In this document: positions 12,551-31,955 of the stretch, piece after piece
Layout of the letters: every line of letters begins with the position of its first letter
How positions within the stretch are numbered: position 1 is the first letter of the stretch
From: a virus
DNA length: 32,840 bases
Reading direction: 5' to 3' (one strand)
IMG/VR virus record: IMGVR_UViG_3300042893_000773
Span: 1-32,840 of that record
Notes under the pieces: model-generated
The model's input: only the letters and a program-made list of their open reading frames with translations
Told to the model about the DNA's origin: nothing
The model's database searches: none
Made by a program: the position numbers and the translations under genes

Positions 12551-13444
12551 ATGTCAATACTAATATTGTCTAAAAAAGACGAGGACGAATACGAAAATCG
12601 TCGGCTCGTAGAAAGTCTTCGTGACTTAGGCATCCCTGCAACCATTTACCACCCAGATAACTTTGATGTTGTTGTGGGAAAAGGTACTGGTCATGGTGTC
12701 AAATACAATGGACAAGAGTTTGACATGCCTGATATCGTATTAGCCCGCACAGGCTCAGGCACCACAGAGTTCATCACTGCTATCGTTAGACAGTTTGAAG
12801 AAGAACATATCAAATGTATTAATTCTTCTGTGGGCGTAGAAATTGCAAAAGATAAAATGCGTAGCCATCAGCTACTAGCTAGTAAAGGAATGCCAGTACC
12901 TAATACAATGCTTGTTAGATTTCCCGTAGATGTAGATATTGCAGACAATCTTATTGGCTGGCCCTGTGTTGTTAAAATTATCAGTGGTAGCTATGGTGAA
13001 GGCATCTATCTGTGTGAGAATAAAACTGCATTTAAAAAGATGATGGAGTTCATCGGTAATCTCAATACGCCAAAGACATTGTTAGTTCAAGAATATATCG
13101 GTGAAAAGCCAGGCGAAGATTTGCGTGTATTAGTCATCGGTGGTAAAGTTATCGGTGCAATGAAAAGAATAGCTCCGCCCGGAGATTTCAGAGCAAACAT
13201 ATCTAACGGTGGATATGGCGAGCCGTTTGAAGTTAATGGTGAAATTGAATATCTCGCAAGAGAAACAGCGAGAATCTGTGGATTAGAAATTGCGGGTATT
13301 GACTTATTGTTTGACAAAGATGGATACAAGATATGCGAGGCTAACTCTGCCCCCGGCTTTGAAGGATTTGAAAAATACTGCGGAATAAATGTAGCAGAGC
13401 ATATTGCCGAATATATAAAGTATAAGACATCTTTGAAGCGGTGA
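12551..13444 (+). CDS. rimK: RimK-type ATP-grasp ligase
   Basis: This 297-residue protein matches RimK over its full length. It has a KDKMRSHQLLASKGMPVPNT segment (residues ~100-119), the glycine-rich ATP loop SGSYGEGI (~144-151), VQEYI...EDLRVLVIGGKVIGAMKR (~178-203), and the magnesium-binding EANSAPGFEG (~263-272). Cellular RimK adds glutamates to the C-terminus of ribosomal protein S6; relatives ligate glutamate to peptides or cofactors. In the phage it could modify the host ribosome or a phage protein; the target is not shown. It has its own late box, follows a terminator, and is 42 bases before a radical SAM gene. Confidence 0.88.
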   Translation: MSILILSKKDEDEYENRRLVESLRDLGIPATIYHPDNFDVVVGKGTGHGVKYNGQEFDMPDIVLARTGSGTTEFITAIVRQFEEEHIKCINSSVGVEIAKDKMRSHQLLASKGMPVPNTMLVRFPVDVDIADNLIGWPCVVKIISGSYGEGIYLCENKTAFKKMMEFIGNLNTPKTLLVQEYIGEKPGEDLRVLVIGGKVIGAMKRIAPPGDFRANISNGGYGEPFEVNGEIEYLARETARICGLEIAGIDLLFDKDGYKICEANSAPGFEGFEKYCGINVAEHIAEYIKYKTSLKR

Positions 13445-13481: not shown

Positions 13482-13487
13482 TAAATA
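13482..13487 (+). promoter_or_regulatory. Late promoter box TAAATA overlapping a start codon
   Basis: CATAAATA ends at the first base of ATG 13487 and lies 5 bases before an in-frame GTG at 13493. A late transcript starting ~6 bases downstream would exclude the ATG and begin near the GTG. Confidence 0.55.
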
Positions 13488-15403
13488 TGTTAGTGAAAAA
13501 TGTCTACCTATTTCAGCCAAATTATTCTTCGGCGTTGCCAAATGGTAAAATAACTTGTTGGCTACCATATGCTGTCGCAGTACTTTGGAGTCATGCTGAA
13601 CAAAATGATGTAGTCAAAAATAATTACAATTTAGCTGACATCTTTTTTAGTAGAATACCTGTTGCCCAAGTTATTGAAAGAATGGACAATCCTAAAATAG
13701 CAGCATTTAGTTGCTATACATGGAATTGGGAATATACGAAAGTTGTAGCCAAAGCGATAAAAGAACAGTATCCAGAATGTTTGATTCTTTTCGGAGGACC
13801 GCAGATACCAGAGGACCCAGAAAGAAAGTCATTTTTTGAAACCCACCCGTATGTGGATTCAGTCATAATTGGGGAAGGAGAAGAGGCTTTCCTTCAAATG
13901 CTACTAACTGTTCACGACAATGGTGCACCTGATAAAGTTATAAAATTTCCTAGAATGAAAGAGCTAGTAAGCCCAAGCCCGTATGCGTCTGGTATCTTTG
14001 AAAGACTAATAAGAGAAAATCCCAATGTTGAATGGAGCGCCACGTTAGAAACTAATAGGGGCTGTCCGTATGGATGCACGTTCTGTGATTGGGGTTCACT
14101 AACACAAAGTAAAGTTAAGTGCTTTAGTGAAGAACGGGTGTTTAGTGATATTGATTGGCTTAGCAAACATAATATACCCTACGTATTTTTATCGGATGCA
14201 AACTTTGGCATACTAGTAGAACGAGACATGCGGATAACAAAATACTTACGCAAAACTCAAAATCTTACTGGTCAACCAGGCACCGTATATGTTACTTGGG
14301 CTAAGTCATTTAAGAAGAAAGAAACTCTTGATATAATTAAAGAATTCTATAAGGGCACTGAGGTTAACGGTTTAATAATTTCGTTACAATCCATGAATGA
14401 ACAAACGCTAGTAGATATTAGACGTTCTAATTTTCAACTCAATGATATAGAAAACGTAGCAAAAGAATGTAACAAAATAGGACTTATTCCTATAGTTGAA
14501 CTTATACTGGGTCTCCCCGGAGAAACTAAAGAGTCTTGGAAAGATACTTATTATAAGATATTAAGTTTGGATGCTGAATTTAGTGGAAACCAAGCGCATT
14601 TACTAACAGTTTTAGAAAACTCAGAGATTAACAATTCTATGCAAAAGAAGATACATGGAATAAAGACTGTAACCGTAAATAGACCTTCGCCAAACGGACT
14701 TGCAGTTGATAATGAAATTATAGAAAAGGAAGAGATAGTATGCGCAACTAATACTATGCCGTTCGATGATCTAGTCGAAAGCTACATGTTCACCTATATT
14801 ATAAGTATGTTCCACAGCACTGGCTGGGCCAAAATCATAATATTTTATTTAACAAATAATAATATCATGCCACTCAGCCAAATTATTAGTAAATTGGAAA
14901 ATTGTTTAATTAATGGTGACGGTTATCTTTCAACTGAATATCATAGAGTGAAGTCATTTTTTGCAGCATTCTTAAGCAACGCGGAATACAAACAGGAACA
15001 CCAAGATTTAATTAACAAGTCTTACGCTATTCCTCTAGCGAGCCTATCAAATTTTTACTTAAATCATGAGACAATTATAGAAGAACTCCGAAATATATTT
15101 GATATTGAATATACCGGGCTTCCCAAAGATATTCATGACTCACTTTTTGACATACAATCTGCACTTATGTACTCACCTAAAAAAACATATCCATACAGTA
15201 TACCTGACCCATATGGCATATATGAGAGTGCGATGAACAATGAAGTGACTGGCTCTTCCTTACTAAATATAGAATATCTTCATGAGCCTATAATAGACAC
15301 CGATCCAGAAATATTATTCATGCGATTAATCATCGGTAAAAAATTAGGACGAAGCAATACACAAATTACGATAGAGAGAACAAATGAAAAAGATGTATAC
15401 TAA
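13487..15403 (+). CDS. B12-binding-type radical SAM protein
   Basis: This protein of up to 638 residues has an N-terminal Rossmann domain (residues ~1-170, with KIAAFSCYTWNWEY, LILFGGPQIP and SVIIGEGEEAF) like cobalamin-binding radical SAM enzymes. The radical SAM core carries CPYGCTFCDWGS; its cluster cysteines are residues 193, 197 and 200 from ATG 13487. ILGLPGETKESW near residue 343 is the usual late-core motif. The C-terminal ~230 residues are unassigned. The conventional ATG 13487 is given, but GTG 13493 fits the promoter geometry better. The gene follows rimK and overlaps the next gene by 20 bases. Substrate unknown; peptide or cofactor modification is inference. Confidence 0.86.
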   Translation: MLVKNVYLFQPNYSSALPNGKITCWLPYAVAVLWSHAEQNDVVKNNYNLADIFFSRIPVAQVIERMDNPKIAAFSCYTWNWEYTKVVAKAIKEQYPECLILFGGPQIPEDPERKSFFETHPYVDSVIIGEGEEAFLQMLLTVHDNGAPDKVIKFPRMKELVSPSPYASGIFERLIRENPNVEWSATLETNRGCPYGCTFCDWGSLTQSKVKCFSEERVFSDIDWLSKHNIPYVFLSDANFGILVERDMRITKYLRKTQNLTGQPGTVYVTWAKSFKKKETLDIIKEFYKGTEVNGLIISLQSMNEQTLVDIRRSNFQLNDIENVAKECNKIGLIPIVELILGLPGETKESWKDTYYKILSLDAEFSGNQAHLLTVLENSEINNSMQKKIHGIKTVTVNRPSPNGLAVDNEIIEKEEIVCATNTMPFDDLVESYMFTYIISMFHSTGWAKIIIFYLTNNNIMPLSQIISKLENCLINGDGYLSTEYHRVKSFFAAFLSNAEYKQEHQDLINKSYAIPLASLSNFYLNHETIIEELRNIFDIEYTGLPKDIHDSLFDIQSALMYSPKKTYPYSIPDPYGIYESAMNNEVTGSSLLNIEYLHEPIIDTDPEILFMRLIIGKKLGRSNTQITIERTNEKDVY

Positions 15404-23673: not shown

Positions 23674-23750
23674 CGGGGTATAGCGCAGCCTGGTAGCGCA
23701 CTTGTCTGGGGGACAAGTGGTCGTCGGTTCAAATCCGGCTACCCCGACCA
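23674..23750 (+). tRNA. tRNA-Pro (anticodon GGG)
   Basis: Acceptor CGGGGTA/TACCCCG; stem CTTGT/ACAAG with loop CTGGGGG gives GGG, reading CCC/CCT. CCA is encoded. Confidence 0.94.
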
Positions 23751-23756
23751 ATTCAA

Positions 23757-23835
23757 CGGGAATTAGGAAAGTCTGGTTTAATCCGCCTGGTTTGGGGCCA
23801 GGAGATCGTAGGTTCGAATCCTACATTCCCGACCA
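23757..23835 (+). tRNA. tRNA-Pro (anticodon TGG)
   Basis: Acceptor CGGGAAT/ATTCCCG; stem CCTGG/CCAGG with loop TTTGGGG gives TGG, reading CCA and other CCN codons. The D arm is short-paired (GGA/TCC). CCA is encoded. Confidence 0.92.
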
Positions 23836-23862
23836 GTTTATAGAGTACCCTCATATGCTGAA

Positions 23863-23868
23863 TAAATA
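23863..23868 (+). promoter_or_regulatory. Late promoter box TAAATA
   Basis: AATAAATACT lies 7 bases before the ATG at 23876. There is no ribosome site between them. Confidence 0.58.
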
Positions 23869-23875
23869 CTCGTGT

Positions 23876-25213
23876 ATGACTAAAGAGCATAATTTAAATT
23901 CTAATCCAACATTCTGTATGTTAGGTCTTCTACACACTTATGTCTCCCCGAACGGCAATGTTATGCCCTGTTGTGTAGGCGATATGTCAAAAGAATCTTT
24001 AGGAAACATCAATGAAGTTTCTGACTGGAACTCAGTGTGGAACGGAGAACGGTATAAAGAATTTAGAAAGAATATGGTTCAAGGGGAGAAAAATCCCGCT
24101 TGTTCTTTTTGTTATGACACAGAAAAGTTCAGTAAGTCTAGTGCTAGAACAATAGCCAATGCAAACTATTCTAAAAACTATGATGAGTACATGGATAAAC
24201 TTCTCCCGTCAGGAGAGTTGAAAACTAATAAACTAAAATATCTTGATTTTAGGTTCACTAATAAATGCAATCAAGCATGTATTACTTGCAATCATGATTT
24301 AAGTTCTAGTTGGTTTGATTTGATGAACAAGTTAGGTTATCCGATTGTAGGAACAAAATTTATTGAGCCACAGGATAAAACTCTAGCATATAAGTTGATA
24401 GATGATAATATAGAAAGTGTTGAAACTATATACTTTGCAGGCGGCGAGCCACTGTTATCAGAATATCACTGGTACACGCTTGATAGACTAATAGAAAATA
24501 ACAGATGTAAAGAGGTAGAATTAAGATACTCCTCTAATTGCAGCACACTTCGCTATAAAGATAAACATATACTAGACTACTGGAAACAGTTTAAGTCTGT
24601 TGTTGTAATAGCAAGCGTAGACGAAGTACACGACAGATTCAATTACATACGCTGGCCCGGTGATTGGGAAACTATATCAGAAAATCTTAAGAAGATTCAA
24701 GAGTCATTTGAGCAACTACGCAACGAGGATGAAATGACTCACCTGCTAGTATATTCGCCGGTGATAAGTTCTCTCAATGTTCATCGCTTGAAAGAAATGA
24801 TGCAAGAAATTATAGATAAGCAAGCGTATCAGTTTTCTATGGCACAGGACAAAAACGCAATTTTTGAATATTTCCTATTTTGTAATTTGTTAAGAAATCC
24901 AAATCATCTTAGTATTATTAACATGCCACAAGAACATTGGGAAATGGTTGAACTATCATTGGACGAGTTTCAAGTTTGGTATTGCGATACTATTATTGCT
25001 AACACAGAGTATTATGTAGTAAAAACTGAAATGCTCAACGAAGGAATCAACAAAATAAAAGAACTGCGAAAAATGAATCAGCAGGATATGGAATTTTTTG
25101 TTCAACCTACAGAAGACCATTTGAAGCATATGCGAGAATATTCTAATATGGATAGAGTCAGAGGAACCGATTTCATGAAGACGTTTCCTGAGCTTGGTTG
25201 GCTATACAAATAA
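23876..25213 (+). CDS. Radical SAM protein with N-terminal SPASM/twitch-like cluster domain
   Basis: This 445-residue protein starts with a SPASM/twitch-like block: SPNGNVMPCC near residue 25, LGNINEV..WNSVWNGERYKEFRKNM, then NPACSFC near 77, probably holding an auxiliary iron-sulfur cluster. The radical SAM core follows with CNQACITC (Cys131, Cys135, Cys138) and the GGEP motif near residue 190. The auxiliary domain is usually C-terminal, so the order here is reversed. The start at 23876 fits the late box; the in-frame reading further upstream crosses two tRNA-Pro genes and is false. Substrate unknown; peptide modification is typical of the family. Confidence 0.85.
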   Translation: MTKEHNLNSNPTFCMLGLLHTYVSPNGNVMPCCVGDMSKESLGNINEVSDWNSVWNGERYKEFRKNMVQGEKNPACSFCYDTEKFSKSSARTIANANYSKNYDEYMDKLLPSGELKTNKLKYLDFRFTNKCNQACITCNHDLSSSWFDLMNKLGYPIVGTKFIEPQDKTLAYKLIDDNIESVETIYFAGGEPLLSEYHWYTLDRLIENNRCKEVELRYSSNCSTLRYKDKHILDYWKQFKSVVVIASVDEVHDRFNYIRWPGDWETISENLKKIQESFEQLRNEDEMTHLLVYSPVISSLNVHRLKEMMQEIIDKQAYQFSMAQDKNAIFEYFLFCNLLRNPNHLSIINMPQEHWEMVELSLDEFQVWYCDTIIANTEYYVVKTEMLNEGINKIKELRKMNQQDMEFFVQPTEDHLKHMREYSNMDRVRGTDFMKTFPELGWLYK

Positions 25214-28318: not shown

Positions 28319-28412
28319 ACTCCCTTAGTTTAGCGGTAAAACACCTGGCTTATATCCAGCATCGTCTCCAGATTAGAGAGCGTCACAGGTTCGAATCCTG
28401 TAGGGAGTACCA
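28319..28412 (+). tRNA. tRNA with anticodon TAT (Ile, AUA) and an unusually long variable arm
   Basis: Acceptor ACTCCCT/AGGGAGT; anticodon stem CTGG/CCAG (28345-28348, 28356-28359) with loop CTTATAT gives TAT, reading ATA. The variable region is about 24 bases (28361-28384) and can pair CG.CTC with GAGCG. Isoleucine tRNAs normally have a 4-5 base variable loop, so identity is uncertain. T arm is normal (TTCGAAT) and CCA is encoded. Confidence 0.75.
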
Positions 28413-28416
28413 ATAT

Positions 28417-28502
28417 GCCCAGGTGGTGGAATGGTAGACACGCAACGTTGAGGTCGTTGTGGGCGAAAGCCCGTGAAAGTTCGAGTCTTTTCTTGGGCAC
28501 CA
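28417..28502 (+). tRNA. tRNA-Leu (anticodon GAG)
   Basis: Acceptor GCCCAGG/CTTGGGC; stem CAACG/CGTTG with loop TTGAGGT gives GAG, reading CTC/CTT. Long variable arm (GGGCGAAAGCCC). CCA is encoded. Confidence 0.94.
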
Positions 28503-28525: not shown

Positions 28526-29284
28526 ATGAATACGCTAGTCGCCATATTAACATCAGATAAAATTGACAAGCTTGAACGCTGCATCAAATCCGTATTACAA
28601 CAAACACCACTAAGTGATATTGTTGTGATCATAAACACTGCGGATACACAATACGCAACGTCTGCTCAACACACTTGTAAAAAATATGGTATTAGATATG
28701 AGGTTACCATATCTAACGGTACTCCCGCAATGGGTAAAAACTCTGTTCTCGATTTCTTTCTCAATACAGAATATGATTACCTCACGCAAATAGATGGTGA
28801 TGATTATCTTACTCCAAATGCCATCGATAAGATTCATAGTATAATACAAAACAATCCTAATATAGATATTCTTGGTCTTACTAACAATCCTATGACATAT
28901 CAAGGTAAACAGTATATGGTACAAGAGTTTTTTGAAAGTTCTGATATCTACTCATTCGCAGGAATAGACGGTAGAGAAGCACTTAATTTGATTGCATTGG
29001 GAAAGTTTATGGTAAACCATCTTCCGTGGAATAGAATTTTATTGTATTCTAGACAATGTGCCGAATCGTTTCGATTTGATGAAACATTCTTAGGAGCGGA
29101 AGATATAGTAGCATCCTATGAATTATATTATAACTCAACTTTAAAATATCTTTTTACACATGAACATCTTTACATGTACGATTTAGAACCAAACGGCAAT
29201 TTCAATACGTTTCTAGCAAATTCTACCGAAGTAAAGAAGATTCATATGAAACTTAGGACTGTGGTAAATGCATCTAAAATATAA
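28526..29284 (+). CDS. Family 2-type glycosyltransferase
   Basis: This 252-residue protein is a GT-A fold glycosyltransferase. It opens with TLVAILTSDKIDKLERCIKSVLQQ (the family 2 start), has the metal and sugar-nucleotide motif DGDDYL near residue 92, and an acidic GAEDIVASYE near residue 190, the usual place of the catalytic base. It transfers a sugar from a nucleotide donor; acceptor and sugar cannot be read. The start at 28526 is chosen because the in-frame reading upstream crosses tRNA-Leu. It overlaps the next gene by 17 bases and begins a four-gene operon. Confidence 0.85.
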   Translation: MNTLVAILTSDKIDKLERCIKSVLQQTPLSDIVVIINTADTQYATSAQHTCKKYGIRYEVTISNGTPAMGKNSVLDFFLNTEYDYLTQIDGDDYLTPNAIDKIHSIIQNNPNIDILGLTNNPMTYQGKQYMVQEFFESSDIYSFAGIDGREALNLIALGKFMVNHLPWNRILLYSRQCAESFRFDETFLGAEDIVASYELYYNSTLKYLFTHEHLYMYDLEPNGNFNTFLANSTEVKKIHMKLRTVVNASKI

Positions 29285-29921
29285 AATTGACTTACTTAGG
29301 ACATACAAAGTATTTAAAAAGTTGCGCAAAAATCCTACAAATACAATTTTTGTTTTTGAAATACTGCACTCAACAAATTCGCCTTCTCTTAAGTGGACAT
29401 ACTCTAAATTACTTCAAACTTCTTATGGTGGTAGAACGGCATATGATTCAGAAGAAATTTCTAGTTACTTTGGCACATTAGCTGAAAGGCCAAACAGTTC
29501 TGTTGGTAAAGAATGTCATAATTTATTTCCCAACCAAGAGATTCTGCTTAAAATAAGTAGAAGAAAAAATAAAAATAATGATTGGATTGAGGCTAAACAT
29601 CCATACAACTGGATGGCAAGAAGATACAGAGACACGCACGACACATGGCATACACTTACCGGTTATCCTGCTAATGATATCGGAGAAATGAGGCTTGCGA
29701 TGTTTTCGTTTGCACAAACAAAATCTATTGGTTGGTTTTTAGTAAGTTTTGCTATCTTGTTGAAGTATGGTGTTACCAAACGCAATGTGATGTTGATGTT
29801 GACTGCATATCAAAACGGTAAACAAGCTAAATTTCTTCTCGCTGAAAACTATGATGAATTATTCAGCGAAAATTTAGAAGCCGCACGAGCAAGATTGAAC
29901 ATAAATGCGCAAACTCTTTAA
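29268..29921 (+). CDS. Coq4-like protein
   Basis: This 217-residue protein carries HDTWHTLTGYPANDIGE at residues 124-140, the HDxxHx(11)E zinc motif of Coq4, with His124, Asp125, His128 and Glu140 all present. Residues ~110-122 (YNWMARRYRDT) and the downstream helix EMRLAMFSFAQT also fit Coq4, which acts in ubiquinone biosynthesis at the membrane in mitochondria and some alphaproteobacteria. The N-terminal ~100 residues are less clearly matched. It overlaps the glycosyltransferase gene by 17 bases and the next gene by 17. Role in phage infection is unknown; support of host quinone synthesis is inference. Confidence 0.68.
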   Translation: MHLKYKIDLLRTYKVFKKLRKNPTNTIFVFEILHSTNSPSLKWTYSKLLQTSYGGRTAYDSEEISSYFGTLAERPNSSVGKECHNLFPNQEILLKISRRKNKNNDWIEAKHPYNWMARRYRDTHDTWHTLTGYPANDIGEMRLAMFSFAQTKSIGWFLVSFAILLKYGVTKRNVMLMLTAYQNGKQAKFLLAENYDELFSENLEAARARLNINAQTL

Positions 29922-31388: not shown

Positions 31389-31955
31389 ATGGCAGTACTA
31401 GCCTTAGACGTATCGGGTATCCCAAGAACGTGGGTCTCCCACGACGAAGCAATTTCGTATCATGCAAAGAACTTGGTTGCCTGGACTCTAGGCGACGTTA
31501 TTGCTAGATATAGAGGCGGCTATCAAGATGATGGTACGCAGAGTTATATCGAAACTCCCAGCATCATTGCTGTTAAGGGTGAAGGTTTTAACTTCAAAAA
31601 GCACAACAAAGTTATCTTGACTAACAAGACGCTGTTTGCCCGTGACCGTAACATGTGCGGATACTGCGGTGTTCAAATAGGCAATCATAGTAAGTTAAGT
31701 CGAGACCACATTGTACCTAGGTACCACGGTGGTATTGACGAATGGACTAACGTTGTTACTGCTTGCATCCCTTGCAATCAAAAGAAGGGTTGTAAGAGTT
31801 TGAAGGAATCTCGTATGGAACTGTTGTACATTCCGTACGCACCCAACCACTACGAAAACATGATTCTCCAAAACCGCAGCATTCTTGCTGACCAAATGGA
31901 GTATCTGTTGAGCGGTGTGCCCAAACACAGTAGAATTGTTCAATTAGCGGCTTGA
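31389..31955 (+). CDS. HNH endonuclease
   Basis: This 188-residue protein has an HNH nuclease core: a CxxC zinc pair at Cys90 and Cys93 (CGYC), the DHIVPRYHGG motif with Asp106-His107, WTNVVTAC with the central Asn, and a second CxxC (ACIPCNQKK). The DNA-cutting, metal-binding fold is complete. The N-terminal ~75 residues and the C-terminal helix (NHYENMILQNRSILADQMEYL) are conserved additions. Such genes occur in T4-type phages as homing or recombination nucleases. AAGGAG precedes the ATG. Its TGA stop is nested in the promoter of the following tRNAs. Confidence 0.9.
   Translation: MAVLALDVSGIPRTWVSHDEAISYHAKNLVAWTLGDVIARYRGGYQDDGTQSYIETPSIIAVKGEGFNFKKHNKVILTNKTLFARDRNMCGYCGVQIGNHSKLSRDHIVPRYHGGIDEWTNVVTACIPCNQKKGCKSLKESRMELLYIPYAPNHYENMILQNRSILADQMEYLLSGVPKHSRIVQLAA

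Follow-up and report, generated by a model that had tools for sequence, protein, structure and literature searches.

A long-armed, virus-borne tRNA-Ile(UAU) family predicted to decode AUA without lysidine

RESULTS

A complete tRNA-Ile(UAU) gene with a hairpin in its variable arm

The DNA analysed here, subsequently named the window, is a stretch of 32,840 nt from a virus (IMG/VR record IMGVR_UViG_3300042893_000773, positions 1 to 32,840) that carries 22 tRNA genes, a tRNA-Leu(GAG) among them. The tRNA gene under study, whose parts are listed in Table 1, is called tRNA-Ile(tat) by ARAGORN and matches Rfam RF00005 over 28319-28409 with 60.3 bits (cut-off 29). Its cloverleaf is complete: the acceptor stem (7 bp) and the T stem (5 bp) pair perfectly, the D stem has 4 bp, the discriminator is A73 and CCA is encoded. 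The anticodon stem consists of 4 bp beneath a C27-C43 mismatch and closes a 7-nt loop, CTTATAT, in which U33 and A37 are present. A TAT anticodon and a long variable region had been read from the letters in a first-pass annotation; both were borne out, the latter at exactly the length and position given there. The variable region folds into the hairpin TCTC-CAGATTA-GAGA, lengthened by two C-G pairs around a bulged G. The folding energy of the single sequence is unremarkable (z -0.83 versus shuffles), so that comparative evidence is needed for this hairpin. The gene was found in six other IMG/VR contigs, identical or with one T-loop base changed, and in three of the six the downstream sequence differs from that of the window. 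The gene is thus not a read error, and the sequencing error in the variable region that the annotation had allowed for can be set aside.

Table 1. Parts of the long-armed tRNA gene and its neighbour, in window coordinates
Feature	Position	Strand	Evidence
tRNA-Ile(UAU) gene, long variable arm, CCA encoded	28319..28412	+	ARAGORN, Rfam, cloverleaf, model R2 (106.3 bits)
Acceptor stem, 5' strand, pairs with 28402-28408	28319..28325	+	
D arm GTTTAGCGGTAAAAC, short 7-nt loop	28328..28342	+	
Anticodon arm, 4 bp with C27-C43 mismatch on top	28344..28360	+	
Anticodon TAT (UAU)	28351..28353	+	ARAGORN, cloverleaf
Variable region, 24 nt	28361..28384	+	
Variable-arm hairpin: stem 28365-28368 with 28376-28379, loop CAGATTA 28369-28375	28365..28379	+	folding, covariation
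T arm	28385..28401	+	
Acceptor stem, 3' strand, and discriminator A73 (28409)	28402..28409	+	
Neighbouring tRNA-Leu(GAG), ordinary class II	28417..28502	+	ARAGORN, Rfam

Other genes of the window include one for a protein with a Coq4 (ubiquinone biosynthesis) domain (29268-29921, Pfam PF05019), here in a phage, and one for a 503-aa SPASM/radical SAM protein amid the tRNA genes (23702-25213), of which only three other viral contigs have a counterpart. The product of 12551-13444 has a PHROG match annotated as ribosomal protein S6 glutaminyl transferase.

The gene belongs to a large viral family with a conserved, covarying arm

We collected 105 distinct long-armed tRNA-Ile(TAT) genes from three scans of IMG/VR and from loci fetched for other reasons; nearly all come from uncultivated viruses and a few from Lactobacillus phages of the Herelleviridae. 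The patterns of the first two scans required parts of the anticodon arm, and the first of them also AGATTA. The third was defined by GGTAAAAC for the D arm, TTATA together with two stem bases beside it, and a T loop, and left the variable arm unspecified; every new long TAT tRNA that it returned (∼60 sequences) had AGAT in the variable arm. Across the collection a YAGAT loop (YAGAU in the RNA) is present in 104 of 105 members and reads CAGATTA in 84, the sole exception being phage 3-521 with CGGACAG. The window gene has both features that define the family, the UAU anticodon and a variable hairpin with a YAGAU loop (CAGATTA). It scores 106.3 bits with the family covariance model R2, of whose training set it is a part, while other phage tRNAs reach at most 52 bits. 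This large family apparently has not been described before: our search, which covered the open-access literature, found no prior description.

In an alignment of 34 diverse representatives RNAalifold recovered the variable stem unprompted. Pairing is kept in 99.3% of the cells of this stem compared with 64.8% in shuffles, double changes occupy 39 cells compared with 10.3 and are found in all four pairs, and the covariation score is 0.815 against 0.135 for shuffles and at most 0.21 for slid controls. Across the family the acceptor and T stems are free to vary, with compensatory changes, and a 7-bp acceptor stem together with a 5-bp T stem was seen in 40 of 41 sequences. On this comparative evidence the variable arm is an old covarying element common to more than 100 distinct viral tRNAs, and a hairpin that is conserved and covaries speaks for an arm that is retained, not an intron. 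The first-pass annotation had offered 'an isoleucine tRNA with an insertion' as one reading; its second half is too weak a description of such an arm.

One pair of the anticodon stem, nearly always the top one, is open in 78 of the 105 members. As the other 27 have 5 bp, the open pair is not family-defining; it is shared with the tRNAs with 4-bp anticodon stems for which an extended superwobble hypothesis has been put forward (PMC13092985), a paper in whose text a search found no mention of UAU or of phage. We also considered the C27-C43 mismatch as a defining trait and rejected it: the early patterns had required C43, and in the third scan some members turned out to have a normal C-G pair there. 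Of the 105 members, 100 have C or U at position 38.

We further picked relatives of the window phage by a structural protein alone, ignoring their tRNA content. Six of these records yielded a TAT tRNA (G003/L190, G024/L167, G424, G427, G430 and G439, with the same tRNA in G003 and G430), and all six have the long arm with the loop CAGATTA. The L190-type tRNAs (including that of G430) and the L167 tRNA have D arms and anticodon stems clearly unlike those of the window gene, yet they keep the loop, which thus persists through change of the body. Other viruses carry class I TAT tRNAs (93 distinct short sequences of ∼73-78 nt). These share the UAU anticodon with the family, but their variable loop is short and lacks the AGAU hairpin loop, and position 38 is mostly A. 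Long and short TAT tRNAs apparently occur together in only one examined locus, L443, where the short gene is doubtful. Among the tRNAs of the viral loci examined, which are a sample, we saw the hairpin on no other isotype. Trp(cca) tRNAs of 85-89 nt and Lys(ctt/ttt) tRNAs of 85-86 nt (L022, L023, L062, L069, L080, L099), too long for their anticodons by ordinary standards, have variable hairpins as well, so odd variable arms in these viruses are not limited to isoleucine.

Distribution of the family

The phages ENFP1, Lpa804, LpeD and 3-521 (Lactobacillus Herelleviridae) carry a tRNA-Ile(TAT) of 91-93 nt with the same type of hairpin; in Lpa804 and LpeD, both of them isolated phages, it is unannotated. 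A similar match in phage Semele spans 97% of another family member, and in 50,697 phage records matches over most of the length came from Lactobacillus phages only. The pattern of the main subfamily gave a single match in 84,980 bacterial and archaeal species genomes, on a 14.8-kb MAG contig with a phage terminase, and no bacterial chromosomal copy was found in this search. A search with model R2 of 398 Bacillota genomes, the set in which the second subfamily was sought in bacteria, brought up no further family-like sequence, and plasmids yielded no member. The family therefore looks virus-borne, mostly in uncultivated viruses. A structural protein of the window had no match among the 50,697 phage records that could have hinted at the host.

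Phages of this group carry many tRNAs; one virus contig (record G002, the contig of L397, 478840 bases) has 62 tRNA matches. ARAGORN also reports tRNAs with a cta anticodon, labelled Pyl, in L446 and L452/L453 (records G005 and G002), which could read the stop codon UAG. Genes for HNH endonucleases, possible movers of tRNA genes, adjoin the long-armed tRNA in LpeD and 3-521 (L017 2229-2849; L018 2121-2777), and one lies in the tRNA cluster of the window (31389-31955).

The tRNA body resembles bacterial tRNA-Ile2(CAU)

The best cellular matches to model R2 in the 398 Bacillota genomes were 72-nt tRNAs with CTCATAA loops (59-64 bits). In four genomes the remaining CAT tRNAs were clearly fMet, with an open 1-72 pair, and elongator Met, with a TTCATAC loop, which leaves the CTCATAA tRNAs as tRNA-Ile2 by elimination. 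These are identical to family members at up to 51 of 59 body positions (36-39 for the window gene), and most of them share with the family a pyrimidine-pyrimidine mismatch at 27-43. Further common traits are the 7-nt D loop, the anticodon stem, A73, A37 and AUA as the target, whereas bacterial tRNA-Ile2(CAU), the lysidine tRNA, has C34 and a 5-nt variable loop where the viral family has U34, hence no lysidine site, and a hairpin arm.

Isotype was also assessed with a home-made profile test that ignores the anticodon; it was trained on the tRNAs found in the viral loci and has a leave-one-out accuracy of 63-100% depending on isotype. Of 94 members scored, 59 were nearest to the CTCATAA group, and the family means were +5.0 bits for this group, -20 for Leu, -31 for Tyr and -40 for Ser. 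The window gene alone scored about equally with Val (3.3 bits) and CAT (2.8 bits); being ambiguous by itself, it takes its isotype call from the family. The window gene has the long, hairpin-forming arm of a class II tRNA and lacks a body of the Leu, Ser or Tyr type. A D arm taken from tRNA-Gly(UCC) was considered too, as 13 Gly tRNAs have the same D arm, yet Gly bodies score -36. From these similarities, rather than from a tree, we infer that the body descends from, or was shaped like, bacterial tRNA-Ile2(CAU).

ATA is read as isoleucine over evolutionary time

In the window ATA accounts for 141 of 561 isoleucine codons (a quarter), or 18 per 1000 codons. A 638-aa protein lacking a PHROG match (13487-15403) has 35 ATA codons, a quarter of those counted. 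We scored the amino acids favoured at 40 ATA sites of the window with ATA masked in both query and subject, and obtained 32.8 bits for Ile, 31.7 for Val, 15.9 for Leu and 12.5 for Met. As controls, ATT and ATC sites ranked Ile first and Leu codons gave Leu; on ATG, the codon of a single-codon amino acid, the method is uncheckable. Judged by this scoring, ATA is isoleucine over evolutionary time. The isoleucine half of the reading 'isoleucine tRNA with an insertion' is favoured by the Ile2-like body and by ATA sites that look like Ile or Val. Its alternative, a class II tRNA that reads ATA as another amino acid, found no support: we rejected Leu, Ser and Tyr identities on the body scores and the ATA sites together. 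Conservation of Ile is lower at ATA sites (0.36) than at ATT and ATC sites (0.59-0.65), which leaves room for a few percent of another amino acid at ATA; lower conservation is common for rare codons.

DISCUSSION

In bacteria AUA is normally read by a CAU tRNA modified with lysidine. A plain UAU anticodon runs the risk of poor charging and of misreading AUG, and a tRNA-Ile with U34 is charged poorly by IleRS of the E. coli type. As the first-pass annotation had remarked, UAU is uncommon in bacteria: only 17 bacterial genomes have tRNA-Ile(UAU) in place of tRNA-Ile2(CAU) according to tRNAscan-SE 2.0 (PMC8450103). A few bacteria (Bifidobacterium, Mycoplasma, Neorickettsia) have a tRNA-Ile3(UAU) that resembles the family in that UAU reads AUA without lysidine (PMC8450103), as the class I viral tRNA-Ile(UAU) do. 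The same holds for tRNA-Ile3(UAU) of Lactobacillus plantarum, and recognition of UAU tRNA-Ile by IleRS has been studied in lactic acid bacteria, according to papers cited in PMC9976931. Allo-tRNAs likewise combine a long arm with, in some members, a UAU anticodon, which is common there (PMC7609411); their arms are 8/4 or 9/3 and they are recognized by SerRS, whereas the 7/5 arms and A73 of the family rule out an allo-tRNA identity.

We give a probability of about 0.7 to the following reading: the window gene encodes a virus-borne, class-II-shaped tRNA-Ile(UAU) with an Ile2-like body, which is predicted to be charged with isoleucine and to decode AUA without lysidine, the hairpin enabling the use of U34. 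Such a tRNA would be a phage derivative of tRNA-Ile2 in which U34 has taken the place of C34, and the hairpin with the conserved YAGAU loop that of the short variable loop. Isoleucine would be loaded by the IleRS of the host, and AUA would be read during phage translation independently of lysidine from the host's TilS. The hairpin may be what makes a U34 tRNA-Ile functional in an ordinary host bacterium, either by aiding charging by IleRS or by blocking the misreading of AUG. We infer charging with isoleucine, independence of lysidine in vivo and this job of the hairpin from the comparisons above. Since the hairpin is tied to the UAU anticodon and not to the other tRNAs of these phages, making a U34 tRNA-Ile work is its most likely job. 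As a tentative proposal, one that we would not yet bet on, the YAGAU arm could be a new identity or decoding element of tRNA that lets the host IleRS charge a U34 tRNA or stops it from reading AUG.

Besides the ambiguous isotype score of the window gene alone and the lower conservation of ATA sites, two observations count against the preferred reading. An Ile2-like CAU tRNA seemingly also occurs in some phages with the long UAU tRNA, which would then be redundant, and the long family has C or U at position 38 where A is commonest in class I viral UAU tRNAs.

An IleRS-type domain (PF00133) was absent from all 28 viral records searched, and these also held no convincing TilS, so that charging would fall to the host. 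Five of the 28 gave weak matches to PP-loop ATPases (16-20 bits, below the PF01171 cut-off; L439-L442 among the loci), four of them in records whose long-armed tRNA belongs to the main family, the fifth in the record of L167, with its variant body. A phage-encoded IleRS and, with sub-threshold matches only, a phage-encoded TilS were accordingly rejected as candidates. These counts also bear on the possibility that the hairpin is a binding site for a phage or host protein, for example an enzyme modifying U34, and is read neither by IleRS nor by the ribosome. Conservation is far higher in the loop sequence than in the covarying stem, as might be expected of a protein site, but neither the IleRS-type domain nor the few weak PP-loop matches provide a partner gene common to the records, and we regard this possibility as unlikely, at around one chance in a handful.

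It is also improbable, somewhat more so, that the arm shields the tRNA from being cut or modified by a host defence, which would make it an anti-defence tRNA that also decodes AUA. No nuclease with bacterial tRNA-Ile(UAU) as its target is known to us, and this counts against a shield. So does the fact that, of the many tRNAs in the examined loci, the UAU tRNA alone has the arm, and a conserved loop could as easily be a target as a shield. The idea gains from the many tRNAs in phages of this group and from reports that phage tRNAs escape anticodon nucleases (PMC10264068) as well as tRNA damage linked to retrons (PMC11555353) and that Septu cleaves the variable loop of tRNA-Tyr (PMC13096335).

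Charging by LeuRS, which would place leucine at AUA, is modelled on the nematode nev-tRNA-Ile(UAU). That tRNA also has UAU and an added variable arm and is charged by LeuRS in vitro, with leucine only (PMC4300185), but it is eukaryotic and its arm is Leu-like. The long arm and A73 of the window tRNA would suit LeuRS, and Leu is slightly more frequent opposite ATA (0.115) than opposite ATT and ATC (0.075 and 0.088). The body, by contrast, is Ile2-like and scores -20 bits as Leu for the family and -27 for the window gene where true Leu tRNAs average +16, the arm is wholly unlike that of the adjoining tRNA-Leu(GAG), and the ATA sites prefer Ile to Leu (32.8 versus 15.9 bits); we therefore consider charging with leucine very unlikely. 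The chance that the window tRNA is decayed, or owes its odd length to a chance insertion or an assembly error, is negligible despite the C27-C43 mismatch, because near-identical copies in independent contigs and compensatory stem changes among relatives rule out a sequencing error or pseudogene, the acceptor and T stems and the Rfam score are those of an intact gene, and a 27-43 mismatch is common to 74 of 105 relatives and has its pyrimidine counterpart in bacterial tRNA-Ile2.

For phage annotation, the tRNA-Ile(UAU) described here adds a family that is now labelled plain tRNA-Ile or overlooked. That a large viral family has kept UAU, with one and the same hairpin loop in nearly all members, suggests a second way of solving the AUA problem, one open to test, and with it a dedicated viral tRNA design for a codon that bacteria handle by a special modification. 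If this is true, a variable-arm element would be added to the biology of tRNA-Ile, and the family may provide a tool for AUA decoding independent of TilS.
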